A stretch of DNA of 64,000 bases from Polytrichum commune (lineage: Eukaryota; Streptophyta; Polytrichopsida; Polytrichales; Polytrichaceae): NCBI GenBank assembly GCA_950295325.1, contig OX485807.1, forward strand, positions 19,315,666 to 19,379,665. The letters are read 5' to 3'. The notes under the pieces are model-generated. The model searched no databases. It saw only the letters and a list, made by a program, of their open reading frames with translations, and had not been told where the DNA came from. A program made the translations under genes and the position numbers. Below are positions 1,462-54,182 of the stretch, in pieces; position 1 is the first letter of the stretch, and the number at the start of each line of letters is the position of its first letter.

Positions 1462-2350
1462 CAAATCTGTGCAAAGACCAAAAGACAATTTAAATCAAAA
1501 TGAGAAAGAATACAGACAAAACCTTCTACCCCAAACATAGAGTGAAGACTACAAACAAAAATCACAATGACTTCACACCCTATAGGGATTGTCACCAAAT
1601 GATTGCCTAGTCTATACTCCTCATTCATCACAAGCATTGCAACAATTTCGCAGTGCTTCTAAGAACGATGGAAATGAGAGAAAAAAACAATTTAAATGCA
1701 AGGAACATCTTCCGAGACTGTATTGGGACTGTAAGATTTCCACTTTATTACATTCTTGAATTGCTTATCGAAGAATAATTACCATTAGACACAGAAAAAG
1801 CCTTTAGGACTCAATAGTAATAGCATCACCATGTTGTGTCCTAACTGATATCAAGTAATGAGGCATTATGATGAGAAATCATAAGTGGCATCAGATCTAT
1901 TGCCCTAAATCTGTGCAAAGACAACACATAATCGAAAGAGTGCAGACATGACCTTCTACCCCAACATGGAGTAAAAACTAGATAATTTTAATATAAATAA
2001 TTTTAAAATAAATAAATCAATCAAATCACAACATATGGGTTGTCACCAAATTATTCCCTAGCCCATACTGGTCATTCATCACAGGGCTTGCAACAGTTAG
2101 GCTATGGTTCTAGGAACAATTAAAGTGTGAGCCACTACATCACATAGATTGGACTGTTATTGATCACTATGTATGACCATGTTTCAAGAACATACTGTGA
2201 CTGTAAACCTTCCAATTTATCATAGTTCACCAAAGAACTATGAGAATCCAAAACAGAAAAAAGCCGGTAAGAATCAAAAACAATAGCACCATGTTAGTTT
2301 AAACTGATGTTATGTAATGAGGCATTCTGGTGAGAAAATTATAAGTTTTA
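1462..2350. repeat. Imperfect tandem duplication (about 440-bp unit) upstream of the Mog1 start
   Basis: Two diverged copies lie head to tail, about 1462-1905 and 1906-2350. Shared blocks in order are CCAAATCTGTGCAAAGAC, a run about pinning 'ACCTTCTACCCCAA', 'GTCACCAAATnATT', 'CATTCATCACA' and 'GTAATGAGGCATT'. The first copy starts next to the Mog1 ATG, so the duplicated unit is probably 5' UTR or promoter sequence. Divergence is high, so the event is not recent. Confidence 0.7.
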
Positions 2351-4305
2351 GTCAACAAAGAACTTGCTCCCCTATCTGTCAGAGACTATATGGATAAATT
2401 CAATGCATTGCACAAGCCAGTAGAGAAGATATTTAAAGCACCAGAATAACTTGGATAAATATCATCTGCTAATTGAGCTTTGTTATACTATGCAGATCCA
2501 GTAAAAAGAACATAATTCCTACTGTAAGTCTAAAGCCTAAACGTTTAAGAGCACAACAGAAGAAAACACATCCATCCAGCACAACTTCATCAAACTTCAT
2601 CACCCATTACATATGTGGAAATACCAATGCTCAATCCAAAAATCGGCTTCGAGTTGATCCACCCAAAACAAAAGAGACCATGGAACTGCAGGACCTACAT
2701 CCAACACAAGAAAAACCATAATTTCCACACAGACATTCCAATCATCGAGTAACATGTAGCCACATAGATAGACCTAGTGTTTCTTCTGGGAGGCTTGAGA
2801 GAGGGTTTTTTTAGGTTCAAACCTTCAGCTGCAAAATTCTCATATCATAACAGCCCTCAAAGAACAGAGAGCCGCAGGATCCTGGTGGTAATTGGATCTA
2901 CCCTCAAAAATCTCAGGAGGTTGAGAAAAGAAACACCGGGCTGACTGGGATCTAACACTCTCCTTACACCATGACAAAATACAAGAGATCCAGAAGGCAA
3001 CAAGCAGGTCATTGATTGGAGAGGAAAAATAAAACCTCTCCGTATCAAACATCCCCACAGCACAAACAAACCAAAAAAATCCAGAAACTGCACCTTGAAT
3101 CAACGCTCTTCGCAGCCTCGGTATACCAAAAAGCACAAGAGAAGTGGAAGCGTGACCCCCCACAATCATCAGCTCAACTCTACAACAAAAACTTGCAAAA
3201 TGCATTCCAGATGTGGCAACCTTACTATGAAGGGTGGACTCGAGCCCTCCTCAAATTTTGGCTTCTACTGAAACACCAAACTACTAAAAGTGATGGATTC
3301 ATACCTATCATACCAGAAGTGGAACACCAGATGTGTTGCAACGACTCCGCCTTCGAAGGTGATCTTTTTATACCACAAACTGAAGGGTGAAGCTCTTCCT
3401 CACTTCTCCCCAGACAGCAACCACATGTGCAGGGAAAAAAGGGAAGAGTCTGAACGAGCCTAAACACTCGACTTTTGTTTATGTTTTTAAACCTCGACGT
3501 GGCAAGGGTACATGGCTGGATTCGTCCTTGGAGGTCCACCGTTGAACGCCAGATCAAAAAGAAATTAGGTTAAGTCTTGTAGATGTGGGCCCCCAACAGA
3601 ACAATTCTTTCAGTGAAAACAAATATTCGGAGAATGACTCCCCTGACCTCCCACTTTTCCAACTTATTCTAGGAAACTAAATTCTGCTTGTTACCTAACC
3701 TTACATAGATCTATGGCCGACCTCACAAGTGAGGCTTCTCAGAATTCCCAGCTTTTACTTCCTGGTGAAGGAAAAAGTTGAAGGCATACCCAAAGCTGCT
3801 TCAAGCTACAAAAGCCTCCACCCTCCGCCCTACTGATCCTAGAGATTATTCCTCCGAACTGGAATATGCTTTGATGGTGTCTGCGCACATAAGGACTTTG
3901 CAACAGAGATCTTGGTAAGCTACCCCAAAGTTCAAACTCCAATGTGGCACATGGCCCACTAGTACAAACTTACTTTCAACCCAGTATGAATGCCGTAGGC
4001 ATGGAATTAAATGAATTGGTCATAGGCCCCTCATTTAACAGCGCCTCCAAGTCTTTCTATCAGGCTCCTTTCAAGTTTCTAGGTCACTTATTATTCTTTA
4101 GCTTTCCGTAATCTGGCTCTCACCCTACTACTGACTGGTCTTTGCGGGGAGCGAATCTGGACTCGGGGTGTGGATTTCGAGGCCCAAATCCAAGAACAAC
4201 TTGAAGGCTCTTTTTGTCACTTTTGGCATGCAAAAAACTAACTAACTTCTCGCTCATCAACACACATACTTGCTTGCTTGCTTACTTATGGAAGTTTGAA
4301 CATCG
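2351..4305. other. Intergenic, no supported gene
   Basis: Short open frames occur on both strands around 2840-3560, but none has splice-consistent borders or family similarity. The only notable item is a 26-bp block at about 3512-3537 (GGATTCGTCCTTGGAGGTCC core) that is similar to a block at 24556-24583 upstream of the coiled-coil gene. It may be part of a shared repeat or a promoter remnant. Confidence 0.5.
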
Positions 4306-5070
4306 TTGGAGTTATCCGTAAAGTCGCTCGAAGAGGGACGAACCGTGGGTTTGACCCCTCTTTGAGAATACTTTCCCTTAAGAGCTTGTTAGTTCGTCAT
4401 GTACCATAGCTTGTTTTGAAAGTTGGGTGAAATTTTTGGGACTCCCTCCTGCCATCTCAAAAACTTTGTGAGAGTTTAAGATGTAAATTAGGGCATGCGC
4501 ATGGGACCCGTTGTCCTAAATCTTTCCCTTAAGAGCTTGTTAGTTTGTCATGTACCATAGCCTATTTTGAAAGTTGGGTGAAATTTTTGGGACTCCCTCC
4601 TGCCATCTCAAAAGTTTTGTGAGAGTTTAAGATGTAAATTAGGGCATGCGCATGGGACATGTTGTCCTAAATCTTGGATCGGCTTAAGGAAGGTTAGCTT
4701 GGCCCACCCATCTTAGTAGGACAAGCTAGAAAGCGGTTTTCAATAACCCAACATTACTAGGATTATCCCAATTTGTGTTACTATTCAAAGTTCAATAATG
4801 TCTTACTGAAGAGTTCAAATTTTATCAATGAAGTTTCAATAGGTTGTTCGGCCATTATAGAACATTAATGACTTTGCTTGGTAAAGAATTACATTTTCAT
4901 TGAATAGTTATAGCATTGCGTAACTTCAAATAATAACACGAGCTACTTGGGATTATTCAATGTACTCTTTGTGTATGATAATTGACGCATTAAAAAAGAG
5001 GGTGACTTTGTGTTAATCCTTGGAAAATTCAAGGTTTGGGTTTAAACCCATAGTGTCATCTACATTAATT
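4306..5070 (+). repeat. Repeat family A, copy 2, with an internal 151-bp tandem duplication
   Basis: The copy starts GGAGTTATCCGTAAAGTC and contains a short stem (CTCGAAGAGGGA). It then carries the block also found inverted at 868-1208 and 18600-18995. Inside it, 4371-4521 and 4522-4672 are near-identical direct repeats (CTTTCCCTTAAGAGCTTGTT... to ...GTTGTCCTAAAT). They differ at only a handful of positions, so this duplication is young compared with the family as a whole. No protein is encoded; the element type is undetermined. Confidence 0.75.
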
Positions 5071-6920
5071 TATAGGAAAATCTCTTTTCTTTTCATTTAT
5101 GAGTTATTAGGTGAGGCTTTGATATTCCAAGTTTAGAAGAAAAAATAAATGAAGTCACAAGATTATTTGTCAACTTTAGGTGTAGCATAAATCAAGTAAA
5201 TTTTTGTTTTTTATATATTTTTATGCAAGAAAGAAACAAAAAGTGGAAAGTGGTGCTTTTGCATCAAACTGACAGAAAGCACATGCCACATGGGTTTCTC
5301 TACAATGCAATATATGGTGTCATTTGCGTTTTACAAATGGTTGGCAAATTAAAGTAGGCTCACAAGAGTAAATTTGTGCTTGTAATTACACATCCACTAG
5401 CTTCTTTTGTCCATGTGGGAGAAAAAAATATTAACAATAGTCTACAAGGCGTGGTCACAGTGATGAGGGTTGGGAAATGACACCCTTCAATCTTCCAACA
5501 CAATCCAATGTTGGAGCATAGACAAACTCCTACTGAACTTGTTAACCAAAGGTACCTAAACAATGCTAATTGTAAAACCTAGACTAATCTTCTTCATAAT
5601 GTAGATGGGCCTTAATTGACACCTATATTTAAACAGTGAATGGTTAGGTGCATATCTAAAAAGGGACACAAAAAAGACACATGTTTACAAAGGATTGGAC
5701 TATGTGTTTAAAATTTGTTAGTCATTCTAGGGCAATAATGAGCATAATTGAGGAAACCTATGTGGCCTTCTTATGGCTCACCATCATTGGACTTTGATAA
5801 ATCATAATAATTCAAGATTAGCTCCAAACACAAGACATGCAACGCTACTTTTTAGAAACTCACAACACTCAAAGTGGAGAAGGCCTGGAATGTCAACTTG
5901 GCATGACTTGTAGGTACTTGACACACCTAGTACAAGTCTGTTTGAGGTCCACCTAGTGAATAATCATAATGCAAATTGTTGGATGAAGATAAGAATATAG
6001 AATATACCTAGGAGTCCAGACTCATACGATTGACTTGAGAAGAACATTCTGTTATTGAAGAAGATCCTGTTGGTGGACAAGTTAATGGATTCGGTAGGTA
6101 GATAGAGTTGGATACATGTCGGTAAATCAAAATCATCAAACAAGGTATGTAATTGTCCACTTAGGCTTGAAAGCGTAATTATCATTTGAAAGTCAAGACA
6201 CAATAAAATCATGTGTCTGTAAGAACATTGTACTAGTGGTTCACGTGCTTTGTGCTGATACTCAACTTCTAAAAAAAATTATTGCAGTCTTTGGTCTGCG
6301 TGTACAACATATTTGTTGAACCTTATTTTATTTTTGTCATCTACATTTTGTTATGGAGTAACTAGTCGCACAATGTTATCCACAATCACAATTAGAGTTC
6401 ATTGTAGAGCGAGCCACTATACAAGCAGACCTAAGTAGCAAATACAGCATGAGAAGCGAGCTCCTCCTTACGAAACACATTCCTGTAAGTAGATACAAAT
6501 ATATCCCAAAAAAAAACAAAGAAAAAACACAAAACAAAAAAAGCAAGTGTCCCCTCCAAGAATCAGTCACCCTTCATGAGCATCCTCTACCGCAATGACT
6601 GCCCCCCTGCGATTCGGCCTTGTTATGCTTGGGGCTGCACGGATTCGAGGACCAGCTGGACCTTTCTTTGTTGCACCTGAATCATAAATTCAGAGCCTGC
6701 CCTAGTCAGTCAAAGATCATTTATTGGGTTACCAGCTCAAACAATGAAGAAGATTCAAGTCGTTTTGCAACTGATATGCAAAGAAAGCGGCAAGGTCAAA
6801 ATGTTGCGCATTTGATGTACATTCAAATGAAGTGAACTACAGGTATGAACAACATATTTGGCTTCCTTATAACAGCTCTACCCAAATGTTATCTATAGCC
6901 TGAGGTAAGGTACTCAGCAA
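5071..6920. other. Intergenic, repeat remnants only
   Basis: There is no supported gene. About 5640-5790 is a weak reverse-complement copy of repeat family B (GGATTGGACTATGTG block). The rest is AT-rich single-copy-looking sequence. Confidence 0.5.
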
Positions 6921-38029: not shown

Positions 38030-39640
38030 TGACATTAGTCTTTGGATGTGATGTAATATCAACAATGCCCATGCAATTATATCAATGTGTTTGATTTCAT
38101 TGGCACTCCCTAATTTTTTTAATTTTTTTCGCAGTTGAGAGCTTTTAAACGAACATTTGGCAATTTTATTGTAAGTGTCCCTATAAAAAATTTAAATGTC
38201 CTTGTGAATGTAGAAAATACAACCAACAACTCTTCTTTCAAGAGATACGTGATCAAGATTGAATGTTCATGATCTAGCATTGATTTCATATAGGAAAGAC
38301 ATTCACAAGTTGGGAGGTTTGCTATGATCTCAAAGGGGGAAAACTCCACCCTGCACCAAGGGGATTCTTGAGCAAAGTAGGGCCAACGGGCTCAAATTCA
38401 CATCAATTTGCCCAACGTTGGTTTTTCTTTTCTTTTCTTTTCAGAGGGGAAACAAAAATAGCACATGAATACCAAAGTCGCTTTTCAAAGCATCGTTTTG
38501 GAGCATGCAAATCTTGAGCACTACCTCCCAAAAGCACTCATTTCAAAATGCAAACAACAAAACCTCCAATTGGTGTAAAGGGGATTTGATTGAGTATGTG
38601 GCATCCACATTGTGGTCTTCCATGATTCGTGTGAGATTAAATAGAAACTTCAATATTATGGATGAGATCCATGATTTTGCGTCAACAAGTTTGCTTCGGG
38701 GGGCTTCACAAATGCTTCATAAGTCAAAATTACATTATTTATTTATTGAATATGTAAATTCTAATTAGCCAGAAAATGCCTTCATTTCATGCCCTTTATT
38801 TTGGGAACGGTACCCACTCCCCTTGTATTATTGTCCTAAACAAAAATTGGCATGCATTTGTCTCATCTGGTTATCAGTTGCACAGCATGAAGAATGACAT
38901 TTCAAGCTTTAAAATCGGAGTTTAGATGTGAGGTCAAAGTGAGGTCAAAGTGAGGTCAAAGTGAACATCCTCCCTCTCTTAAAGTGATCACAAAGTAAAT
39001 TGTTGAATCTTGAATGGTTGTCATATTTTGAGTACAATCTCATTGGAGCACCCACTTTCTTTTTGGTGTCCGTTCATGATTGAACGCCTTGCCATGTACC
39101 ATTGAATATTTATATGTCAATTAAAGAAGTGTAACTACATATGGCCCACAAACCTTAGACCTTAATGGCCTAAATGACCCAAAATGAGACTCCCATATTA
39201 TAGATGACCACATCAACCTTTTTTTTTAGCTACTAGTATTCGTTTTGTTACAGTGAGGTAAATTGATTAACACACATGTGTCTATATATATAACTTTTTG
39301 ATTGCATTGTAAGGTGTCACCTCCTCTCTTTGTGGTAAGAGGCGATGCCAACAAGCTTCACACAAGTGGATAGGAGTCGCCTAAAAAATGGGGCATGTCA
39401 TTAAGGTTCATTATTGGGGGTAGCCAATGAGCTCCATTGTGATCCGTGGATGGAGTCTATCCTCGCATTTAAGGGCTCATCATTGCTTAGAGTTTAGTTG
39501 GGTGGGGTGAGTGGTGTCACCACTGTCTCCTTCATTCTCCATGTCTTTGGTGACCAACCTCTTGCTCTTTTGGCTTGTAGGTTATAGCCTCTTTGCTCAT
39601 GTAGTGGGGATTAATGGCACCACCTTTTGATTGTAGTGGA
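38030..39640. other. Intergenic, no supported gene
   Basis: A short GAGGTCAAAGT triplicate occurs at about 38,930-38,960. No coding frame or recognised repeat lies between the foldback element and the Harbinger transposon. Confidence 0.5.
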
Positions 39641-39670
39641 GTTTAAGGCCCGGTTCAGACCGGGACGTCC

Positions 39671-41802
39671 GGAAGCAGTGGACAAGATTTTGTGCACCGT
39701 GATTGGGTAAAGGGTTTATTTTGTCCGGTGGGGTATTCACACCGGAGGGACGTCCTCTTGGGCAACTTGCCACGTCATGAGGCCCTCCCGCCAAAATTGA
39801 AGAGGGACTGGTCTCTTGTAGTGGACAAGTTTGGGGTGTCCTCGGGAGGTGACCTCAAACTTGTCCACAAGACAAAACCCTCCTCGCTCCGCCTCCGCAC
39901 CTCCGCCTCCTGCACCTCGCTCTTGACATTCTTCTTGGTGATGTCCAAATTCTCTTGGGTTCCTCCTGCACTGCAAGGGAAATTCTACTTGGCCAGTGTT
40001 GCAAATCTGAATCGCGTTGTTGAGTTTCACATGCATGAGTAAATCATAGCGTTTTAGGTCTGGAATTTTTCTTCCTTGAGCTGAGGAGGTTTTTGTTTGA
40101 CAAAAGCTGGATATTTTGTTCACAGTGTGAGGCAACTTTGTGGAGTGGAGGATTTTTGCTTGAGTTGCAAGGAATGTTGGTTTGGTGACGGAAGCTTAAC
40201 CATCTGTGAGGAGGGAGCTCAAGTTTGTTGTCAACCAGTGTTGGTTGAAGTTGTGAGGTGAGGCTCTTGACTTCTTTTTTTTGTTTGTTTCATTTAAAAA
40301 ATAAAAATAAATTCTTCTGTTGCAATCAGCTCTGGTTTGATTCTCCAGTTTGTGGAAGGAAAAGGGGATGATTGAAGGTTTGGCCCTAGCTTGAATTTGG
40401 TGTCAGGGTTTAGGGAATTCTACAAGTTTCAATTTTGGAATTGATGTTTACAATTAATGCAAAAGAGACAGGGACCGTCTTAGGTACATTGATATGAAGA
40501 GCTCAAATTCCTTCACCTTGATTTACCAAATTTGCAAGCTTGAGCTTGAAATTGAGCTCAGGTTGTGTTTTCACTTTGGATGTAGCTGCATTTGGAATTG
40601 CAACGACAAATTTTCCTTCTGTCTACATACTAGCTCTTCCTAGAATGTAATTTGAGGTTGTTGGCATCTGTGAATTACTTGAGAATTTGCATGTTAGGGT
40701 TCGGTGTTGCAGGAAAAATTGGCCAGACAATCCCCCTGGTGGCATTAGTCTAGTTGATAAAAAGGTAAAAATGAAAATCTGAAAACTCCCATGATCACTG
40801 TAAGTAATGAAGTCAGGTCCATGAGCAAGTTCTCTCATTGCATTGGGACCCCCTAAAAAGTTGTTCTTACAATTGATTCTTTCAGACAGAAAAAATACGC
40901 AACCATAGCCACCGTCTACTATTTAGGTGATTTATTTTTTATTTTTTATTTTAAAAAAAAGGCACTTGCAGGAGACATCATAAAGTGGGGATGAAATCCT
41001 AAGGGAGAGGCCTGGTCTTCCGGATTCGGCTTATGTTTGCACAACAATTGTCTGTAAATTCGGTGCTTCACATTCACAGATTGCAACTTGGTGTATTTTA
41101 TCAGAGTTGAGGGATACCGACAGACTTACTAAGCTTGTGCACCTTCAAGTCTTAAATTGTCACTGTTAGCTTCTTGTTTGAGTTGCACCGTGGTTGATGA
41201 TGATAATGGTGATGGATATTTTGTGACCAAATTTATCAGTGGGAGGACTTCAGTGAAGTTGGCGGTGGAGTGTGCTTACAGACCGTCGTTGGATATATAG
41301 TTTCTTGCTACTAGTAGATGCTGAGGGTTTTAGGGGTTATTGGATCTCCCTCTTGAGTAGGCTTGGAGATTGGGAAGCTGTTGCTCTTTTACAAAAACCC
41401 AACTTCTGCAAGTGGAGAGCATCGAAGCGTTGCAGAGGGGAGGTGCAAATTAGCGTTGCAGAGGATTTTGATCACCTAAGGTATGTGGCCCTGTAGTGGG
41501 CACTTCCAACAGCACCAACATTCGTCGGCTTTGGGAAATTGTCTCATTTTGTTAGCAGTTCCAAATCACACAGATTTGTCGTTTCAAGTTTCAGAATCAC
41601 AGTACAGGTGCAAAAGCAGAGATGCATTAGCTACAAGATTAGTCCCAATCAATCATTCTCTATCTCAGACCTACAACGGCCAACTTGTGGGCACTTCTAT
41701 CTCCACATAGAATTAGGAACACATTGGTATTTCAACTACGGAATGTTTTCTTCCATTTTGATTTAATTATGAATGGTGGCTGTTTTGAATCAGATTTCCA
41801 TA
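39671..41802. other. Left interior of the Harbinger element, upstream of ORF1
   Basis: About 2.1 kb follows the left TIR, with no trusted coding frame. It probably contains the ORF1 promoter and leader. An AG before ATTTCCATAATGG (41791-41793) may be a splice acceptor just ahead of the ORF1 start. A second host-derived segment cannot be excluded. Confidence 0.4.
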
Positions 41803-42842
41803 ATGGAGTACAGGTTATCTTCTAGTTTCGAAACAGAAGAGGAGGATCTCCAGCAGCCACAGACATGTGAGAAATTTTCGGACTTGTTATATGGGGAATT
41901 CCAGGGTGATGATAGTTTTGGTAATTGCACTGCTACAGAGACAGAGCAAGTTCCAGAGGATACATGTGCAGAGAAGGAACAACCTCCCACGAAGAAGCGC
42001 TCGAGAGCTTTGTTGGAAAAATCAAAAAGCAAGAAAAAAAGAGGTGCAAAGATGAAGACCAATTCCATTGACCTTGCACAAAGTTCTGATGAAGAAGAGG
42101 GCAACAAACGAGGACCGAACTGGAAAGAGCATTGGATAGTGAATCTCATTCACTTGCGGGGAAAGATGCATGATAAATTCTGCGGCATGAAAAAACAAGG
42201 TTAGTTTTTCTTAACTTACATTTAAATTGAAACATATATTTATAATATCATTTTTTTGGATAATCACTAAGTTTGTATGCATTGTGCTTATGGAACTTTT
42301 AGGTGTGGACAATTGGGGCGTTCTCCACACTCATCTTGTGGCCGCTTGTCCTGATTTCGATCGAAGTAGCGATGCATGTCGCAAAAAGTGGAAAAAATTG
42401 TACGACGACTACAAATCTGACTACAATGTCAACGGAACCTCTGGTAGTCAAAGGTCTTCAAAGTCCAAATATTACCTTATTATTGATAGCTATATGCATG
42501 ATCGTGCTAATATTTTCAAACATGTTCACGGTAGTGCTACTGATGAGAATCCTAATCAAAATCCTTCTAGTTTGCTACATGAAGGAGAAGACGTACCTGA
42601 AACCATGAAACCACCTGAAGCAAGTAGTTCAGAAGTGCAAGGGAAGAAAAAAACGGACAAGTTTCACTAGTAGAAAATTCTGCGTCCGGATCAACAGAAA
42701 GGCGTTGGTCGCGGTTGTCACTTAGGACGCGTTGACCTGGACATGATGTAACACAATTTTGTTGATTTTTTCTGTTGATATGGTCACAAAAATATTTTTT
42801 TAAAAAAACTTATTATATATATATATATATATATATATAACA

Positions 42843-43060
42843 TTAAAAAATAAAAAATAAAAAATGAATAAATGTCAGATCTGCAACTCCTAACCCCTCC
42901 CAAGTAACCCTCAACCTATACCTTACCTACAAGTATAGACTACCTACAACTCACATAGGTGGCAAGGCCAAGGCCGAAGGTGTCGGCCACGGGAATCGAA
43001 CCTTGCACATAGTGACACCCACACATGTGCCTTAACCACTAGGTCATCACATCACACATG
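42843..43060 (-). mobile_element. tRNA-derived SINE inside the CACTA element
   Basis: On the minus strand there is a polymerase III A box, GACCTAGTGGTTAAGGCA (43045-43028), and a B box, GGTTCGATTCCC (43002-42991), at tRNA-like spacing. A roughly 100-bp tRNA-unrelated body follows, ending in a T/A-rich tail (TTTATTTTTTATTTTTTA). The box sequences match the plant tRNA-derived SINE consensus well. Target duplications are unclear because both flanks are AT-rich. Confidence 0.75.
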
Positions 43061-43137
43061 ATATAAGTGGAGTGTTTTAAACCTTTCTAGAATAAGGCCA
43101 CTATTTTCTCTTTACTACCTACTTGATGTATATATTT

Positions 43138-43480
43138 ACAGTAAATATATACAGTATATAATTACAGTATATAATTACAGTAAATATATACAGTATATAA
43201 TTATAGTAAATAATTACAGTATATAATTACAGTATATAATTACAGTAAATATATACAGTATATATACAGTATATAATTACTGTAAATGTATACATATAAT
43301 ATATATATATATATATATAATATGTATATATATAATGTGTATATATATATTATATATATACACATTATATACATATATATATTATATGTTACATATATTA
43401 TATACATATTATACATATTAATATGAATTCATATACATATACATATTAATATATTAATATATATATATATTATTAACTAT
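43138..43480. repeat. AT-rich tandem array and long palindrome in the CACTA interior
   Basis: 43138-43290 is built of TATATAATTACAGTA/AATATATACAGTA units of 13-15 bp. 43290-43388 is a near-perfect palindrome centred on the TATATATATA run near 43,345, with ACACATTATATAC and its complement as landmarks. It could extrude as a cruciform. Confidence 0.8.
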
Positions 43481-43953
43481 CAACTAATATAATATTTATA
43501 ATATTTACACACCTTTGAATTCGTAATTATTTCCATACCCATACATTTACAAGACTATAAATTGCAAAAAATTTTAAAAATTTTACAATATTCCAATAGA
43601 TCCTAGAATATTCCAAAAAGATTCAAAAAGATTTCACATTTACTAAAATTTTGTTGATTTGGTCATTGTACTATTCTAATCAACAAAAATGTAGGCAGTA
43701 AACTGTTGATTTTTACAAAAATTCAAAAATCAGTGAAATCGGTCAGTGCAGTGCCCGGATCGACAAAGATCTGTTGATTTTTTGTTGATTTGGTCATGAT
43801 TTTCTAGTAGTGTTTGCTGCCCAACAAGCCATGTCTGTGATGGCAGAGCAGTCAGTGAGGCTAACTGACTCAATTACGAGCTCTGAGGCAGCAAAGCTCA
43901 ATTTGTTACAGGGAATGTTGGCGACAATGAACGAGTTGGTGAGGAAGTTGTAG

Positions 43954-45084
43954 AATTTAATCAACTTTTGTATTTGTTTGTTGGATGGACATGAAATAGG
44001 TGCACTGTAGTATCCAGTGTACACTATGTCGCAGAGATATTTTCCTGCACCGAATATAATATTTTTGTACCACTTTCCTGTTTATGTTTACATGACAAGG
44101 GCAAAAAGCTATTTGGTCTACTACTTCAGTAACATAGTGAGATAATTTGATGAGGCACAGTTAGTGCTTGAGGTTGCTTTGTCAGAACGGATTCAGGTTA
44201 TGAGGAGCATAACAGTTCCTTCAAATTGTCTTTGATTTGATGGGTTTTGGCTCAGAGAACATGATAAACACGCTTGAAGACTCGAGGCTCAAGCATTTGG
44301 AGATTGTCTCATTGAGTCTTCGTTGGCTGCATAGTTAGGTCAATTATACTTTTGCTGCTATTCCTCAGCTTCGGGGTTTTGTTATCTCAAAGTTGGTTGT
44401 GATGATTTTTGAGATGAGATATGGAGAGAACTGAAGTTTCAGGCTCAGGAAGATTGTGGGGATGATGGTTGGGAGCTGTTGGCTTGAATTTCAAAATTTG
44501 CACAAAATCTGTAATGATTTTGGGACGCTTCTTCAAATTTCATCCGCGAACTTTTCCTTTGACTTGTTGGAGGATTCAGGAAGTTTTGATGTAATTGACA
44601 GAACTGCATAAGTTGAGATCCCATAGTAGTTCGGGGGTAGCCCATTCCCAGCCAGAGGCTGCAGACTTCCCTGTCCTCCATCTGCGACGAAGGGCATCGA
44701 ACTGGTCACCCTTTGTATGATTTCTTTCCTCCTTGCACCTCTTGATTTTCTAGTTTTTGTTGTTCTTCTGTAGCTTTTGAAAATCACAGAATTCTGCAAT
44801 GTGTTGGTCACAATTGTGACCAGGGGAATGTTGATTAAATCTTTTCCAGGTGATTGTAAATTATTAACACTCAGGTGATTGGTCTTTGGGAGAGGTGCTT
44901 ACTATATGTGTGTCTTTTCCAGGGTTTCAAATTGCAGAGTGTTTTGTTCCATTAGAAATTCATGAATGTGTAGATTTTGTGAGGTTGGATTTGAGAGGAT
45001 CATGTATTTGCACTAGTAATTCACTTCCAATGCCTGCTCTTTGTGTGCACAGAACTGACTTATAACTGTGAGATTATTAATCAG
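43954..45084. other. Harbinger interior between ORF1 and the histidine kinase exons
   Basis: No coding frame is supported on either strand. The first part probably holds the 3' UTR of ORF1. The last few hundred bases, up to the acceptor TTAATCAG at 45084, are probably the intron that preceded the first captured kinase exon. Confidence 0.45.
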
Positions 45085-47760
45085 GAATGGCACAGGTTTT
45101 GGCAACCACTTCCTTAGATCTGGAGCAGAGGGAGCTTGTGACTGCTATGGTTTTTAGTGCCGATGTGCTACTTGCTATTATTTCAGATGTACTGGATCTT
45201 AGTAAAGTTGAGTCTGGTATGACATCTATCTATCTGACTTTTTCTGCATTTGATGATGAGTGTGAGAGAGGAAGTTGTGAATCAACACAGACCAGTTTAT
45301 ATGTATGTGTGACTTATGTATTATTTTGTAGCATATTTTTTTATATAGAGGATTGTCATTTTATTCAGGTAATTGTCTGGATATGAATTGCATACATCTA
45401 ACTAGTCAACTTGAAGGTACAATGAAACTCGAGGAAAGGGAGTTGAATCCCAGGGACATTATTAAACATGTGGTGAGGACGGCCATAGCAGCAAGTAAAG
45501 ACCGTGGCATCAGCATTCAGGCTAATGTTGGAGATGATGTGCCTGCCTTGGTATAATCTTTTACCAATATTTGTAATGCTCGATCTGAATGAGAGACTTC
45601 CATATCAGAATTGTATCATGGTTCAAAATGTAACCAACATGATATGTCCTAACTTTTTTCCTCAGGTTTATGGCGACCCTTTGCGAATAAAGCAAGTGAT
45701 CACCAATCTGGTACAGTGTCTCTTTTCACCAATTGTGTGCACAGTTTTCAGTTAAGCAACATGTGTGTCTCTATATTAAGTTTATATCTTTAACTTCATT
45801 GGTCATCAAAAAGGGCATATTAGTAATATTAGCTTTACAACAAGGCACATACCTATTTATAATCTACTGAATGAAGACACGAGTACTGGATCATGGCGTG
45901 CACATTGATATTGGTATGTTACCGTCAGAAGAGTAGAAAGTTTATAAAGGAAAGTGGGGCAAGGAATTGAGGTGTAGTTAGTTTCTAGCCTACTATGCTG
46001 TTTGGAATAGTTTCCATAATAGAATTCATATTCAGATGTGATATATGCTCAGGTTATGGATTATTGTGTCTCACTGGCAATGTTCACTGCAGGTGTTTAA
46101 TGCAGTTAAGTTCACAAAAAAGGGATATGTGAAAGTTAGACTTCATGTTGTGAGACCCTCAACAGATAAACTCAAAGGGGGAACCCATCATCAATGTGGA
46201 GTGGCAACTCCTGAAACGATTCGTAAAGCTGAAGAAATTGAAGGACATGTAGAGAGAGTGGAAAGAAATGTGACAGGCATTTTGAATGCAAGCTCACCAT
46301 TGATGAAGCTTGGTGGAATGACTCGTGAGGATATCTGGGATCCCTTACTTGAGGGAGGTCGACGAGAGATACCGGAGCTGTCAACAGCAGAGGAGGAAGC
46401 AGAGAATGGTAATGAAGGTGAATTTTAGTTGCTTTTGGAGTCTGTATCTGCATAATTGGTGATTTGACTGTTTCATCTTTGTATTTTACACCAGTTCAAA
46501 CGTTCAGACATGCACCAACCATATAATTTAGTGAGGCAGGGTCCTTTCATGTCCTGCTCTTAGTTGTGGCTTGAACATCCTGGTCGACATGCAAGGTGTT
46601 CTAAGTCAATAAGAAACAGCAACATTAATGCATTTTCAGTGGCAGTATTGATGATATGTAAGTAACCTTCACCACTGATCTACTTCTTTTTTAAATTATT
46701 GGCTTTGCATCTGAGGTTTTCTTACATTTTGTTTCCATTTCTTGTTCAAGTCTTTCATGTTGGATGTTTCTGGACCCGAAACAGGGCGACGGAAGCCAAT
46801 TGGTGAATCTGTACAGGGTAGAGGCTTGTAAAGATGCACAGTGCAGGAATGCAGAGCATGGAGTTATTGCAGGATTCAGATAAGGTTTAATGCATTCCTT
46901 GAAACCCCAGTTTGTTCTGTATTTTAAACTAGCTCTTGCAAAGATGTCTTACAACATTATTGGGGATGTCTTTTTAGATTTTACCTTGGCATGTTTTGGA
47001 AGCAATATCTGTAAATTTTGAGCATACATTAGTCAAGTTTGTTCATAGGAGTTGGTTATTTACTTAGGTCAGGTGTCATATGGATAAAGCCAAGATCTTG
47101 TTCTAGGTTGTTGTTGTGACATCACACTCATAAGGAGATATGATTTAGTGATCTTGAGTGGTTTTCTGAATTAGATTGGCATTGTTCTTTTCCAATAGAA
47201 TCAACAGTTTGGTCACTCATCAACTTAAGTTTGCACAGGTGGGTGAGGTTTTTGAAGCTGATAAGAAAGTGGCTTCAGAGAATGACCAATCACCTAGAGA
47301 TCTTTGGCTGGGATTTGAGATTGAGGACACTGGTATAGGTATGCTTTCAAAAATTTCACCTCTTGTGTGTAGTTGGAATGGACAGTTATGCTTTTATGGA
47401 TTATGGAACAGATAACCATGCAATTTTGATTGATAGCCACAGATGTAGCACAAGCAGAGAATTGGCGAGTAAATTTTTACATCCAAGTTGTTCAGTCACT
47501 GTGGTTTCCTTGAGACAGGTTGTAAGGATGCAATTGAGGCATCTTACTTATCAGCAATTCGAATAATCTTGATAAATATGTATGCTATGAACTCATGTGT
47601 CAAGTGGCCATGTTGCTGATAAAGGTGGCAATATAATGACCAGTCTAAATATTTGACACCGCAATACATTTGTGATCAGGAATTCCTAAGGAAGCAATAC
47701 CAACTCTTTTTGAGAAATTCACTCAAGTTCACTCGTCGACTACTCTTTTATCTCAAGGGT
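45085..47760 (+). pseudogene. Captured internal fragment of an AHK5-type histidine kinase
   Basis: Exons are 45085-45216, 45417-45550, 45666-45710, 46093 to about 46,400, 47239-47338 and 47679 to about 47,745, with GT-AG borders. They encode, in order: the dimerisation helix after the H-box (MAQVLATTSLDLEQRELV, ISDVLDLSKVESG), MKLEERELNPRDIIKHVV, VYGDPLRIKQVITNL, the N-box (NAVKFTKKGYVKV), a long linker, the G1 box (FEIEDTGIGIPKEAI) and the F-box (LFEKFTQVHSSTT). The match to plant HK5 kinases is strong. Missing are the preceding exon with the phospho-accepting His, the G2 box after 'SSTT', and the receiver domain. Sequence changes abruptly after 'STT'. The linker-to-G1 junction is not frame-compatible in any splice I can find. 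No autokinase is possible. All visible exons are open, so capture was fairly recent or frames are maintained. Confidence 0.85.
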
Positions 47761-49286
47761 GGCTTAAATCTAAGGCCTTAAGTTGAATCCCACGGGAACT
47801 CTGAGGTTAGGCTGCCTAAGGCCGGAGTAGTCATTTATGTTGTATGGGTGTTGTGCTATACCTGAACAGGTGAGTGGGGTTTTGTATTGGGTTCAGGGCA
47901 TTGATACTCTTTGTAGCAGCAGGAGCACTTTTAGAGGCCCTGGCCATGCTCCGCTACTTTAATTTGAGATGAAAGCTCCAACCAGAAGACTTTAGCTATG
48001 GCACCTGGACTGTTGATAGCAAGAGCTATGGATAAGAAGAGGGGGCTTTAGTTGTTGTGTTATAAGAGCACATTGCTCTATTTCATTGACAGCACACAAG
48101 TTAGATGCAAATGTGTTGAAGATTGTATATGTATATGTAGCCATAACAATGTAGGATACCTTAGCAGACTCTGAGGCCACAGATTCGGTTAAATGAAAAC
48201 GTGATGGAAACAAGCTTATGCATCAGAAGCCCTGGCTCTCACCACTTGCCCTCCCCATGGCCTCTGGAGTTGTATTAAGATGTAGACCTAAAACACTAAC
48301 AGCATAGTCACCATCAACCTCCAAATCTGAGGGGGATAGTTTTCTTGGTGAGGGTTTACAGTATGTTGCCTACCCTTGATATTCTTTGTAGAAAAAGTTT
48401 TCTATCCAAGGAGTAATTTGCAATCAGACTATTACAGATTTCTTAATGGAGGACATTGTGGAAGGTGCTTCACATGACTTCTATATATGAATCTTGATTG
48501 GAAATTGTTTTGTTGCATGAAAGAAGAGATGCATGTAGGCGTTGTGTCTGCTGAACACGTGAAAAACCAATGCAATCTTGTTGGATTTGCATGTTCATCA
48601 AATATTGGCTGATTTCAATACACTAATGAAGTGAAGATTGAAAGTCCACAACCTAATTAACTATGTAGAATATCTCACTCTCCATCCTGCCATGTATTAA
48701 ATAAAGTTGTTTTTGAAATGTGAACTTTTTGATGAGAATGAAATGAACTAAACCCTAGACAATCCAAGTGATCCATCCAGGGTATTGGTACTTGGAAGGC
48801 TCGCACATGGTTCCGTTAGCAGTAAATTTTCTCAGTCTTGAATTTTTGAATTTCCTTCGTTCAATGAGGTCTCTGTAATGGATGAGATATGTTGGTAGAT
48901 ATATGGCCAACAGACCTTTCTAGACCTCAGGATGAAGTCCATTTGAAATACACATCTGTTCCTAATGCAACCTAGCCCCCATGAATCAATTAGTGGATGC
49001 TCGTAAAGATCATTGCTGTAACTTCTACACCAAATTGTCATGTAAGAATTTAATTTGTACCCTTCTTTTCAGTCGTGATGGATTTATTTCAATGGAGACT
49101 ACACATTTTCAAACTATTTTTTCAGTTTCACTACAAATATTTGAGCTTCCTTCATCATGTAATTATCTTTCAATGTAGGCCACATGAAAAAACAAACAAT
49201 CCACTTTATTTTGTAATGAAAGATGTGAGAAATCAATTTCGTGCCACAAACATCTCTAAACATAATGGAGTAATAAAATTAGAATT
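47761..49286. other. Harbinger interior between the kinase fragment and the transposase
   Basis: No gene is seen. 47,752-47,850 has weak SINE-like A/B-box resemblance but poor spacing. The remaining kinase motifs (G2 box, receiver Asp region) were looked for here and not found. Confidence 0.5.
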
Positions 49287-50675
49287 TCAATCAGACTCTG
49301 AAGATGATAATCCAACATGAATATCATACTCGTTCCCTGCTAAATCACGTTGCCGTTTTCTACTAAACAGGGATTTCGCTATGGCATCTCGGCGCATGCT
49401 CATTTGATGTGTAGTTGTAGAGTAATTTGAAATTGAAGCAGTAAGGTCACTATCAAGAGATGTGCGATTTAGGAAATCAATGGGGGAGATTGCAACAGCT
49501 TCCGTTTCCAATAATGTAGTTGATGCAGCTGCTGCAGTTGACGTCGATGCCAAATTCCTTTGGAGCTGAGTTTGACCATCTTCAAACCAAGACATATTAA
49601 AAGTGTCATTATGCATAATAGTCAAATTATGCAAAATCAAACATGCTGTTACATGTGCAGGTACATGCCGGAGTTGACAATCCATCCTTTTTAATAGGAT
49701 TCTCCAACGCAACTTCAATATTCCAAACGCACGTTCCACACACATTCGAGAACTTGATTGAATGAAATTCCAGTGCTCCTGTTCGCGAGTGAAACCGTCT
49801 TTGCTACCAAGATAGGGAGTAAACATCCAGGGACGAGGTTGATAAGTAGCATCGCCCAGTAACGCATAAGGAAGGAGTTTTCCACCTAAACAATATTTAC
49901 CTATGTGGGATTTATAGAATAGGTTGTAGTCATGGATACTACCACACCACCCTATATCATAATCCCAAAAACAACAGGAATGGTCTACTACAGCTTGCAA
50001 TAACACAGAGTGAAATCCTTTTCTACAATAATAATCAGCAGCATGTTGTTCAGGAGCTATGATTGGAATATGACTGCCGTCTATAGCTCCAACAACATAA
50101 GGTATTCCATGGAGCGCTTCAAAATTTTCACTAATAGCTTGCATTTGTGATGGTGAAGGCCATCGAATAAACACATCCCTACAAGTTTCTTTTAGAGCTT
50201 GGCAAAATTCTAAAACAATTCCATGTACGGAAGAGACACCAACCCTAAAGCTATCAGCTATTATATAAAGAGGGGAACCGGATGCTAATCTGGTGATTGC
50301 AATTGCAACTCTTGTTTCAACTGAAATAGCCTTCCTTCGGTTTGTATCGACCTTAATAAGTACTGGCCCAACTTGTTGATAAACGTATTTGAAAGTTTCC
50401 TTTGTCATCCGAAACCGTTGTTTGAAAACAATATTGCTGTATGAACCTATTAAATCAATGTCAGCATATCCTGGGGTTCTTTCATAAGATTGAATCCTTC
50501 CTTTTGTCGATCCAACTCTCTTATTTTCAAGCATAAATTGATGTATAAGAAATAAAGCATTTTGATTTAAACGCAAGCTTGCTTCCACATTGACGGTGGA
50601 AGTGTAGAATAAAGCAATGAAGGATGCAAATTGAAAAATGAAGAGGACAACAAGCTTTCTTCGAGATGGATCCAT
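49287..50675 (-). CDS. PIF/Harbinger transposase (DDE_Tnp_4, HARBI1/ALP1-like), uninterrupted
   Basis: 462 aa from the ATG at 50675. An in-frame ATG at 50792 would add 39 residues, but the internal start (MDPSRRKL) fits the usual charged N-terminus better. A helix-rich region (RMTKETFKYVYQQVG, AIAITRLASGSPLYIIADSF, VSSVHGIVLEFCQAL) precedes the catalytic core. The first Asp is in VVGAIDGSHIPI, the second in ALLGDATYQ and the Glu in RMCVERAFGILKLRWRIL, so the full DDE triad is present. HYDYN-type (IHDYNLF) and 'LHN' motifs also match. Known: this enzyme, together with ORF1, excises and reinserts elements at TWA sites. There are no stops or frameshifts over 460 codons, so the protein could still be active; expression is unknown. 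It lies convergent to ORF1. Confidence 0.94.
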   Translation of the reverse strand: MDPSRRKLVVLFIFQFASFIALFYTSTVNVEASLRLNQNALFLIHQFMLENKRVGSTKGRIQSYERTPGYADIDLIGSYSNIVFKQRFRMTKETFKYVYQQVGPVLIKVDTNRRKAISVETRVAIAITRLASGSPLYIIADSFRVGVSSVHGIVLEFCQALKETCRDVFIRWPSPSQMQAISENFEALHGIPYVVGAIDGSHIPIIAPEQHAADYYCRKGFHSVLLQAVVDHSCCFWDYDIGWCGSIHDYNLFYKSHIGKYCLGGKLLPYALLGDATYQPRPWMFTPYLGSKDGFTREQEHWNFIQSSSRMCVERAFGILKLRWRILLKRMDCQLRHVPAHVTACLILHNLTIMHNDTFNMSWFEDGQTQLQRNLASTSTAAAASTTLLETEAVAISPIDFLNRTSLDSDLTASISNYSTTTHQMSMRRDAIAKSLFSRKRQRDLAGNEYDIHVGLSSSESD

Positions 50676-50792
50676 GGCAGAAAAAATAATAATAAGCAAA
50701 CGGGATACAATTTGTGAGAATATCAAATCTATTGAAATAAAAATATAAGTAGCTGCATAATGTCTACTATATGTAAAAGTTGTAATGAACAT

Positions 50793-51730
50793 TGAGTTGT
50801 CATAAGGTCACTGTAGTTTACTTTACTAGCACTATAAGTAGTCATCTTTTAATGGATTTGTAGTGTAGGTCAACTTACATGTAACTCTAATATTTTTAGT
50901 ACAAGTGTTCAAGCAAACTTTATTTATAATGAATTATAATGGATTTTCATATAATGGTAGATGTTACTTTTTTTTATTTTAAAAAAATGACGAAGAGGCG
51001 ATATTTAATGATAAATGGATGTTTTTATTAACATTATTGATGTTCATATTGTATAAAAATATAACATTAGCACATATCACATATGTGTAGTTTTTTTCAT
51101 TAAAATGTTGACAATTACATGTAGCTATATTTGGAAACTTGAGGGTACAGGGCAACTTCATGAAAGATGTCAGTACTTCTATTCTTTCGTCTTGGTACAC
51201 AACCCAATATTGTTTGTGCAATTTGATAACAAATTCCCTCCAAAATAGCACACTTATTATAATCCATTACCTTTAATTTTATAATGCAATTTTTTATTTT
51301 TTATTTTCAATTTCTTTTTTCAACCTCTAATTAAAAAGGTGATAATACACATAATTTGTGCAAAGAAGATAAAACAAACTCTCCTATGAATGACCAAAAG
51401 AAAAGTCTAGTGAGAAAATGTCTCTAAAACAAATTCATTTTTATGTATGGAGATAAGCTAACTCAAAAAATGTTTTAACATTCTAAGAGAATTTGAGTTT
51501 ATAGATTATTACCTAGTACATATAGAATACCGTTAAGATATATTAAAAATACCATTACATGATTTTCATAATGTTTTCATAATATTTACAAAATTACTTC
51601 TCCCATCATAGAGCAACGGATTCAGTTGAAAATATATTATCATATTATGAGTTTGATGTTCATCTGGGAAAGTAATGCATAAATTTTCACAACACATGAT
51701 GTAGCGTTTATACTTTCATAAAATACGCCT
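50793..51730. other. Harbinger interior upstream of the transposase
   Basis: An AT-rich, non-coding stretch that must hold the transposase promoter. I see no distinct motif beyond AT runs. Confidence 0.4.
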
Positions 51731-51731
51731 A

Positions 51732-52047
51732 AGGTAGAGGGGCCATTTCCCGCTGGAATTTCAGATTGGCATGTTCATTGGGGAGTTATTAAGGGGGAAT
51801 CAATCTTGGAAGATGTGCAAAGTACATTGGAAATTGGACCAATTGGAATAATTAATTTTGGATTAATATTGAATTAGTTATGAATTTTGGAAGGAGAACT
51901 CATAGGGGTACCCAAAACCACTCACCCCAAAAATGTACACCATGATTACATAGAAATTTGAGGTTGGAAGCTATAATGTACCTCTTGTTTGGATAGGTCT
52001 AGTGAGCGGTTTAATAAGGACCTGAGCGGGAAAAGGCCCCTCTACCT
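51732..52047. mobile_element. MITE nested near the right end of the Harbinger element
   Basis: The left end is AGGTAGAGGGGCCATTTCCC and the right end, read inward, is AGGTAGAGGGGCCTTTTCCC, both followed by GCT. There is one mismatch in the 21-base core from GGTAG to CCCGC. TA flanks both sides. The interior has no coding frame. It separates the Harbinger body from its right subterminal region. Confidence 0.75.
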
Positions 52048-52200
52048 TATATTGGACGTCCGGTTCCGGTGTGAACCCATCCACCGGACGGGCAATGTGA
52101 TTGTTGACGTGGCAAGTTCCCTCCGCAATCAAGCGGACAAAGCACCGGACACCGGGTTTTGTCCACTACGAGTGGACGTCCCGGTCTGAACCGGGCCTAA

Positions 52201-54182
52201 GATATTAGGGTGCCAAATGTCAAGTTTCAGAGTGGAATGCATTGGTGGTGCTTGAAACGTGGTTTGCGAAGAGCTATGGAGGTTAAGGATTGTGTGTGCA
52301 ACAACAAGGCAACATGCAAGCTTCGAGTAAGATTGTTGCACCTTCTTAAGCTGGGATTTCGATTCTCTTTCATCGAATTTTGAAGTTCATTGCCTTTTGA
52401 GTATTGGATATGGAGCTATTTATTCACTTATCATTTTATATATGGGGCCATTGTCCACCTTATCAAAGCACACATTTAGCCTCAAATTTCCTCCATGTAC
52501 GATTAAAAATCACCACCCAAATTGACATATATGTTATGTGTTGTCACCAAATCCCATCAGGGGTCAGCGTTTCTTCTCTTCTCTGTTGTCACCAAATACT
52601 CCCTATAATGTATCTAATGTAGCCACCCTACAATCCACAAAATATCTCAAGCTCGTACCTTGGTTGCTTTTGAGCTCATCATGTAGCCAAACCTACTACC
52701 TTTCAAAAAAATAATAAGAGTTGGACCGGACTACAACATAGGTGTCGGAATTGACCACTCATACTTAAGTCCAAACTCTATAAGATGTTCTTGGCCTAAC
52801 CCCTAGGCGGTTGGGCCAGTTATCCTATTGCCCCCTTCTTGGATGGGGTGCTACTATGGCAACAACCAAACCATATACACAACCCAAGGTTTTGTCACAA
52901 ACATGGGACTTGGGAAACTTAGCATGCAAGTGAAGAAACTCTCCATTTAGGATACGTGGCTTTTATACGCTTTCTATTCTTAGTCAGACACCTATATTTG
53001 AGTGCTATATGGCAAGGGTTGTGATTAGGATTGGACACCAAAATACATGTGTTGCAGTATGATTGGACTATGTGCTCAAAACATGGACATCATTCAAGAT
53101 TTAATACTATTTCAAATAGGAGGGCCCAATAATCTTCACTTGAGGAAACTTGAACGATTCTATGAACACTTATTGACCTCCTACAACTTTTGCATCTCAA
53201 CTTCAATTATGAAGTTTGGAGCAACGGTTTACCCAATTTACAAGTGCTTACCGGATGAAAAAAAATCCTGATATGACCCAACGATCCAAGTTGTGTGCGA
53301 GGTTCGAAGTTGCATTATAGAGCCACATACTTTACGCTTGCTTTCTTTACGAACATCAATGTTTATATGGAGGGAGAGATGAATTATTGCATGCAAGCCC
53401 ACCTCTCACTCATGCAACACAAAAGTCCTCAAATAATATGCAACCCGAAAGTTATTAATCTTGATTAATTTGACATCAGAATTAACTTCAAAGACCCTAA
53501 AAACCCAGTCTAGTCCGTTGTCATTTGAGATGAATCAACCACAAACCTATAAGAGAAGGTAAGTTTTTATGTTGGATGGGTGAGATAATTCCCTCCATCT
53601 CCTTTATACAGTATCTATATATCTATTTATCTATCTACTACATCCTCAAAGCATCAGGATCTAGGGGTTCAGAAGATCTAGGAATTGTATAGATTTCATA
53701 GAAAGAGATTCACTGAACAGCACAGTATCTATGGAGTTGGTAGGCAATCGGTTTACTAGATGTTCACACGCGAGGATCTTCGGAAGTTGCGATGTTGTGG
53801 AGTTGTGACATGTTGAATGCGGTGATGATGTGCACATAACACAACTTAATTCAATGGAATCTTGGGAAAACTCGCAAGTGCAGGCAGTCTACTGAAGATG
53901 TTGTAACCGACATTGGCATGCAACATAACTTAACCTCAGAACGCAGGAGCAAATGTGCATTGAACTGATTTACCTCAACAGAAATTTAATTTTAGCGATT
54001 TGGTGGTCGCTTCCATGTGCATTGGGGTTGTTTAAGTTGCTGATGAATACATTATTTTGAGATTTTGGATGTTACAAGGTTTAGGGTAGGGGAGATTCTG
54101 TGTGAGGTTTGGGATTCATTTTTGGCTCCAAAACTTCAAAGAGTTAAAATTTCAAGATTGAAGTTAAGGTTGAGCAAGAGAG
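52201..54182. other. Intergenic repeats and upstream region of the pseudouridine kinase gene
   Basis: 52975-53240 is a reverse-complement family B copy and 53369-53606 a family D copy (arms GAATTATTGCATGCAAGC and TGTTGGATGGGTGAGATAATT). From about 53,640 to 54,182 the sequence is unique-looking and should hold the promoter and 5' UTR of the gene starting at 54183. Confidence 0.55.

Follow-up and report, generated by a model that had tools for sequence, protein, structure and literature searches.

By what route DNA transposons acquire host genes that lie elsewhere in the genome is an open question, and one locus of Polytrichum commune puts it in concrete form. Here, in a window of 64 kb (C5:19315666-19379665, within a genome of 408 Mb in 64 contigs), intron-containing exons of a histidine kinase lie between the two genes of a PIF/Harbinger transposon, as an earlier note made from the window alone had described. 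We compared this element (39647-52197, the window copy) with its sister on contig C2 (C2:39343641-39355053, C2a), with a third copy on contig C4 (C4s) and with the host loci that its interior resembles. The kinase forms a single layer in a mosaic drawn from several loci; it was copied as genomic DNA from a gene that remains intact on C7, it replaced older cargo that C4s still holds, and it has moved with the element.

The window copy is one PIF/Harbinger element, in keeping with the earlier note (Table 1). It has the 3-bp TAA/TTA duplication beside short terminal inverted repeats (TIRs) and the DDE_Tnp_4/Plant_tran-type transposase (PF13359; PF04827, E = 7.6e-10) of that superfamily, and the second gene, open reading frame 1 (ORF1), has a Myb/SANT-like domain that is recognized in C2a (PF13837, E = 3.9e-7, 30.8 bits against a cut-off of 27). 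With up to two mismatches allowed, the TIR occurs 20 times in the genome, 10 times in each orientation; a reversed-pattern control gave 0 and 0, so these matches are not due to chance. In C2a an identical TIR pair encloses the corresponding interior, which rules out that the two ends belong to different elements. The window copy itself sits inside a dispersed repeat (39400-39646 and 52201-52260). A search with the two flanks joined (40 of 170 candidates scored, 40 matches listed) returned 38 matches that cross the junction, so that at least 38 further copies of the repeat are listed at 77-82% identity, and 2 that are the window copy's own flanks. Eight of the 38 sites were fetched: none holds an element at the junction, three read exactly TAA and one has one extra base. 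These uninterrupted sites are paralogous copies of the repeat, not the same site in a relative.

The source of the kinase fragment is a gene on C7. A genome search with 43820-49286 as query (40 of 260 candidates scored, 45 matches listed) recovered the window copy and C2a over the full 5,467 bases, and C7:17413910-17416793 (minus strand) for the kinase part alone; the other listed matches fell on other parts of the cargo. Clear kinase homology runs in one alignment from 44861 to 47745, and the first 13 bp of the fragment form a ragged junction. The C7 gene is intact and contiguous, with HisKA, HATPase_c and Response_reg domains in Pfam, and its receiver finds Histidine kinase 5 (4euk) as best PDB match (E = 2.2e-41, the next at 1.9e-19); on sequence grounds it is an AHK5-type histidine kinase, the identity first suggested for the fragment.

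The fragment takes in six complete exons, a partial seventh, the six introns that separate these exons and part of the intron before the first. Its 5' end lies in the intron that follows the H-box exon, its 3' end within the G2-box exon, just upstream of the G2 box. All 13 splice dinucleotides are kept (7/7 AG, 6/6 GT), and the retained introns rule out capture of a processed cDNA. A tblastn search of the window (E up to 1) with the donor protein, 822 aa from the PAS-region exon onward and without the N-terminal exons, found no kinase exon outside the TIRs, all eight matches lying within 45084-47744. With the full gene on C7, this rules out a host kinase gene hit by the element, and the earlier proposal that the kinase was acquired as genomic DNA holds.

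The captured exons, joined, do not encode a kinase, because the two carriers share a 1-bp frameshift in the fifth of them. The H-box, the G2 box and the receiver also lie outside the fragment, and a functional captured kinase is thereby ruled out. Relative to the donor, the window copy has five replacement and three silent codon differences and C2a five and one; in the introns they have 26 and 21 differences in 1,980 positions. The piece most likely has no function as a protein. It could possibly supply small RNAs directed at the donor gene.

C2a establishes that the kinase has travelled. It is 99.34% identical to the window copy on both sides of an insertion nested in the latter's ORF1, its homology ends at the TIRs and the TAA, and it carries the same kinase piece with a TAA duplication of its own; the kinase cargo has thus moved with the element. 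The position of these ends rules out a segmental duplication between C5 and C2. The two copies differ at 44 of 7,420 backbone sites (backbone totals are our own sums) and at 13 of 2,885 kinase sites. Against the donor, the kinase differs at 34 of 2,882 sites in the window copy and at 27 of 2,882 in C2a. Of these differences 24 are common to both carriers, and could have arisen on the donor side or on the captured side, 10 are found in the window copy only and 3 in C2a only; all four indels are shared.

The state before the kinase arrived is preserved in C4s. This copy is 97.5-98.2% identical to the window copy over 40733-42664, 43812-44847 and 47742-52201, and 94.3% identical over 39644-39920; it differs from it across 39920-40733. 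Between the equivalents of 44847 and 47742 it holds no kinase. Instead this interval is filled by 1,334 bp of different host DNA, whose pieces match C3:52.246/C4:7.170, C7:22.587-22.590 and C2:46.272 Mb. At the left kinase breakpoint the alignment of C4s to the C3/C4 donors continues without a break apart from gaps of 9-15 bp, followed by another of 17 bp beyond it; at the right breakpoint the alignment to the C7:22.587 donor continues likewise, interrupted by a single base. Because C4s is continuous with its own donors across both breakpoints, it represents the older state, and the kinase replaced older cargo. The divergence counts agree with this order: the window copy and C4s differ at 145 of 7,407 backbone sites (1.96%). 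At the right kinase junction, the donor and the replaced element sequence share a 4-bp microhomology, ACTC (chance about 0.02).

The rest of the cargo bay between ORF1 and the transposase gene is also host DNA. In C4s the pieces follow in the order C5:12.212, C7:34.257, the C3/C4 pair, C7:22.590, C2:46.272, C7:22.587, C7:31.005, C2:58.015 and again C5:12.212. The window copy retains six of these seven sources, all except C2:46.272, and with the kinase its bay draws on seven loci. Outside the sister elements, the matches listed for each cargo piece come from one or two loci, a lower bound; the exception is a short dispersed repeat of about 77 bp (47756-47831) with many genomic matches, which we would guess to be of short interspersed nuclear element origin. 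Five of the donor loci appear to be genes or to have genes as neighbours (GPKOW-type, J-domain, WDR11-type, short-chain dehydrogenase and PAN3), and at C5:12.2, C7:34 and C2:58 the captured part adjoins the named frame. The WDR11-type donor exon matches Pfam TPR_WDR11 (E = 4.5e-28). The C2:46.272 locus looks like a PAN3 gene, judging by a nearby frame that matches PAN3 in the PDB (E = 1.5e-4); two frames of this donor had no match in Pfam, and its piece in C4s holds a glutamine-rich frame. For the C7:22.59 donor, which like the C3/C4 pair we leave unnamed, Pfam gave no match for one of two frames and one spurious weak match. Two rearrangements were seen: 77 bp of the C7:34.257 donor (1400-1476 of the fetched stretch) have the opposite orientation in the element copies, and about 400 bp of the WDR11-type donor (1821-2216 of the fetched stretch) are missing in the element copies, the flanking pieces being joined.

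Divergence from the donors goes with depth in the bay. Measured on C4s, with a stray second match of C2:46.27 excluded, divergence from the donors runs from outer to inner as 13.5% (C5:12.2); 10.8%, 8.5%; 5.4%, 9.3%; 7.6%; and 3.5% (C2:46.27), the 5.4% layer becoming 6.4% when measured to the C4 donor. It drops inward over the seven layers (Spearman -0.85, exact one-sided p = 52/5,040, on a depth ranking set up after the tiling had been seen). The kinase, which was not part of this test, diverges from its donor by about 1.1%.

What process could give such a bay? We consider it probable that a PIF/Harbinger element with an open transposase has repeatedly, by way of break repair, taken copies of host sequence into the interval that separates its convergent genes. 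Such an episode would most likely begin with a double-strand break in mid-element (through abortive gap repair after excision, or a replication break), from which repair synthesis would run inward from both ends. Where the ends failed to meet, synthesis would switch to unrelated loci, copy them and switch back. Most recently, a copy of about 2.9 kb of the AHK5-type gene took the place of some 1.33 kb of older cargo, the donor copy being left intact, and later transposition put the kinase-bearing version at two sites, on C5 and C2. We infer both this repair pathway and the swap as a single event. Template-switch break repair fits better than a nested insertion or a joint mobilization because the donor is intact, introns are present, the edges are arbitrary, one of them shares ACTC and the other is ragged, the older cargo is missing, and no duplication or TIR bounds the piece. 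Divergence that falls inward is what repeated gap repair with template switching would give.

Several observations weigh against this explanation. The left kinase junction is without clean microhomology, being ragged over 13 bp, and C4s and the C3/C4 donors differ by their 9-15-bp gaps exactly there; the single 4-bp microhomology at the right is weak alone. The difference from C4s across 39920-40733 means that more than one exchange separates the copies. The p value for layering is only indicative, given a post hoc ranking and donors under unequal constraint, and one pair of adjacent layers breaks the trend (5.4% outside 7.6%). The central position of the kinase in the whole element (0.037; within the bay 0.16, unremarkable) is equally expected since an insertion anywhere else would risk disrupting ORF1 or the transposase gene. 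Neither transposition nor repair was itself observed. As a broader idea, which we hold tentatively and at somewhat less than an even chance, PIF/Harbinger elements may be inward-growing recorders of host DNA: failed mid-element repairs would overwrite the core of the bay, the layers at its edges would be older, and the element would keep transposing while its cargo is serially exchanged.

Among other explanations, the one that survives best, though we regard it as unlikely, is that a C4-type element and the kinase locus underwent ectopic recombination or gene conversion independent of transposition. It too copies DNA and can replace what was there, and the ACTC at one edge would suit it. However, there is no extended homology at either edge (24 of 100 bases identical upstream; the 4 bp at the other), so ordinary homologous conversion has no handle, and switching driven by microhomology would in effect be the break-repair model minus its excision step. 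That the kinase piece came as cargo of a second mobile element (a Helitron, Pack-MULE or Pack-CACTA) inserted into the bay is very unlikely, even though insertions of this kind occur here, one of them CACTA-like in ORF1 and another a repeated element in the bay of a further family member, C2c. At the kinase edges neither a 2-9-bp flanking duplication nor a terminal inverted repeat was found (at best 7 of 15 bases, at offsets within 5 bases; Helitron ends were not searched for), and they lie within a donor intron and a donor exon. This explanation is largely refuted by C4s, where the older donors are continuous through the breakpoints; the 1,334 bp of older cargo are gone from the window copy, not displaced. 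Joint mobilization of two nearby elements flanking the kinase gene, the capture model published for Pack-CACTA and Pack-TYPE elements (available parts of PMC8903248 and PMC13317346), is hardly credible here: the kinase is interior to one element that has both genes and lies between older cargo of other loci, the 15 kb around the donor have no match of at least 60 bp to window 39000-53000 beyond the kinase piece, and replacement of an interior is not predicted.

Whether the element described here moves on its own is a separate matter. The earlier note called it apparently autonomous, with ORF1 and a full DDE transposase. The transposase part stands: its frame is open in the window copy and in C2a, and the other close matches have stops in it (three in C4s, one in the family member C2b and four in C2c); a PDB search with the protein gave no match. 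ORF1 does not stand as described, and the autonomy of the window copy looks doubtful because a nested CACTA-like insertion, which contains an AT-rich tandem repeat of 13-bp period, cuts it. ORF1 exon 2 of the window copy alone scores 19.9 bits against PF13837, under the cut-off. The ORF1 frame of C2a stops after 274 residues, before the C-terminus of the C4s frame, and a crude scan of five copies found no full ORF1 frame.

Table 1 Features of the element and its cargo (positions in the window).
Feature	Position	Strand	Basis or remark
Whole PIF/Harbinger element, 12,551 bp	39647..52197		Perfect TIR pair; C2a homology stops at TIRs plus 3-bp duplication
Left target-site duplication, TAA	39644..39646		Uninterrupted paralogous sites aligned
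Left TIR, 24 bp, perfect	39647..39670	+	
ORF1 exon 1	41773..42199	+	Open frame; GT donor set by longest spliced frame of C2a
ORF1 exon 2 as read in the window, Myb/SANT-like domain	42303..42670	+	Enters nested insertion, then stop
Nested CACTA-like insertion, 1,148 bp, inside ORF1	42665..43812		CACTAGTAG...CTAGTAGTG; TTT duplication; missing in C2a and C4s
ORF1 3' end past nested insertion	43816..43953	+	
Cargo bay between ORF1 and transposase	43976..49150		Homology breaks of C2b, C2c and C3a
Outermost cargo, left half	43979..44287	+	Donor region C5:12.212 Mb beside GPKOW-type gene; 83.2%; neighbour Pfam GPKOW_C
Cargo from C7:34.257 Mb	44288..44598	+	Beside J-domain exon
Cargo related to C3:52.246 and C4:7.170 Mb	44594..44847	+	94.5-95.6%; truncated at 44847 by kinase replacement
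Captured AHK5-type histidine kinase fragment	44848..47745	+	98.65% to C7:17413910-17416793 (-), 2,887 columns
Captured kinase exon, HisKA part past H-box	45085..45216	+	Splice sites kept; PF00512, E = 1.4e-6
Captured kinase exon	45417..45550	+	
Captured kinase exon	45666..45710	+	VYGDPLRIKQVITNL
Captured kinase exon	46093..46417	+	VFNAVKFT...
Captured kinase exon	46785..46884	+	1-bp frameshift common to both carriers
Captured kinase exon	47239..47338	+	FEIEDTGIG in donor
Partial captured kinase exon	47680..47745	+	Cut right before donor's G2-box-coding stretch
Older-cargo remnant from C7:22.587 Mb	47742..47831	+	ACTC common with kinase donor at junction
Cargo from C7:31.005 Mb, WDR11-type gene	47826..48694	+	Exon start and further parts; 94.6% over 129 and 87.4% over 737 columns
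82-bp cargo from C2:58.015 Mb	48886..48967	+	Beside short-chain dehydrogenase gene
Outermost cargo, right half, C5:12.212 Mb	48966..49159	+	84.0%
DDE transposase, 462 aa, first ATG to stop, uninterrupted	49287..50675	-	PF13359, E = 6.1e-30; no internal stop
Right TIR, 24 bp, perfect	52174..52197	-	
Right target-site duplication, TAA	52198..52200		

The 20 TIR matches resolve into nine pairs, elements of 1.06-12.55 kb, and two unpaired ends (C4:21062159 and C2:60444184). We fetched the eight paired elements besides the window copy and the two unpaired members, C4s and C2c. The duplication is TAA in the window copy, C2a, C4s and the C7 member and TTA in the C1 and C6 members; no matching target duplication was seen in C2b, C3a, C3b and the short C4 copy. 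The right TIR of C4s has three mismatches, and the left TIR of C2c was not found within the fetched stretch. The members at C6:14.32 Mb and C7:41.03 Mb are 1,064 bp each, with TTA and TAA duplications respectively and opposite orientation.

Other members carry other bays. C2b and C2c match the window copy up to 43975 and again from 49151, and C3a stops at 43975 and resumes at 50523. C2b and C2c have in common a bay core not found in the window copy (90-93%; stretches 2098-3059 and 2956-6895), for which no donor is among the listed matches; in C2c, most of the 3.9-kb bay consists of a repeated element nested within that core. Along the left arm (39920-40692), the window copy and C2a differ from C4s and C3b (813 versus 1,575 bp) and resemble the C1 and short C4 copies (89-97%), a pattern of likeness which argues that family members also exchange segments with one another. 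The 12.3-kb C1 element was considered as a second large capture and rejected, most of its interior matching many genomic copies (40 of 5,403 candidates scored). Within it, a stretch of 2,435 bp (3446-5880 of the fetched stretch) has no other listed genomic match and could be a captured piece; no long frame occurs there, and the one feature noted is a short tandem repeat of 39 bp.

Taken together, these copies provide a before state (C4), an after state (the window copy on C5, and C2) and an intact donor, with one breakpoint placed to the base and events ordered by divergence. They make the model of gap repair with template switching directly testable, and they show exchange of cargo, not gain alone. 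As in transduplicating, that is gene-capturing, TIR elements, a host fragment lies between the TIRs, its donor is elsewhere and the fragment moves with the element. Some Pack-MULEs and Helitrons join fragments of several loci; both belong to other superfamilies, whereas here a transposase gene lies in the same element. A 2026 review, in its available parts, also describes their captured fragments as usually pseudogenic, as here, and allows for a possibly yet undiscovered mechanism for fragments of unlinked genes (PMC13317346).

The earlier note had called capture inside an apparently autonomous Harbinger element less familiar. Capture itself is already known in PIF elements, so the before and after pair and the layering are the point of interest. 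In the full-text literature searched, most subscription journals being outside its reach, we found no report of a pair of PIF elements that preserves cargo before and after replacement. According to the available text of a 2008 study, the Pifvine-3 PIF elements of grapevine contain up to 3.5 kb of host-matching DNA, including exons and introns, some of it common to several copies (PMC2528002). They resemble the window copy in belonging to the PIF family, in a superfamily with TAA/TTA duplications, ORF1 and transposase, but they carry their cargo in a long 5' region; the cargo of the window copy is placed between ORF1 and the transposase gene, as a layered mosaic, with a sister that keeps the replaced cargo. 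The Pack-PIF and other Pack-TYPE elements of maize and rice (2022) likewise have PIF termini around captured gene fragments, while the mechanism proposed for them in the accessible part of that report joins neighbouring insertions, unlike the one we favour (PMC8903248). Pack-TYPE elements lack a transposase of their own, and because an open one is present here (49287-50675) we do not file the window copy as a Pack-PIF, though it is Pack-PIF-like in its working. The gap-filling and FoSTeST models for animal Pack-TIR elements, as far as the available sections of that source go, share with our case breakpoint microhomology, internal gap filling and a copied donor; of the single-copy animal elements 56.9% lie at most 15 kb from their donor, whereas here the kinase donor is on a different chromosome-size contig from either carrier (PMC8277862).

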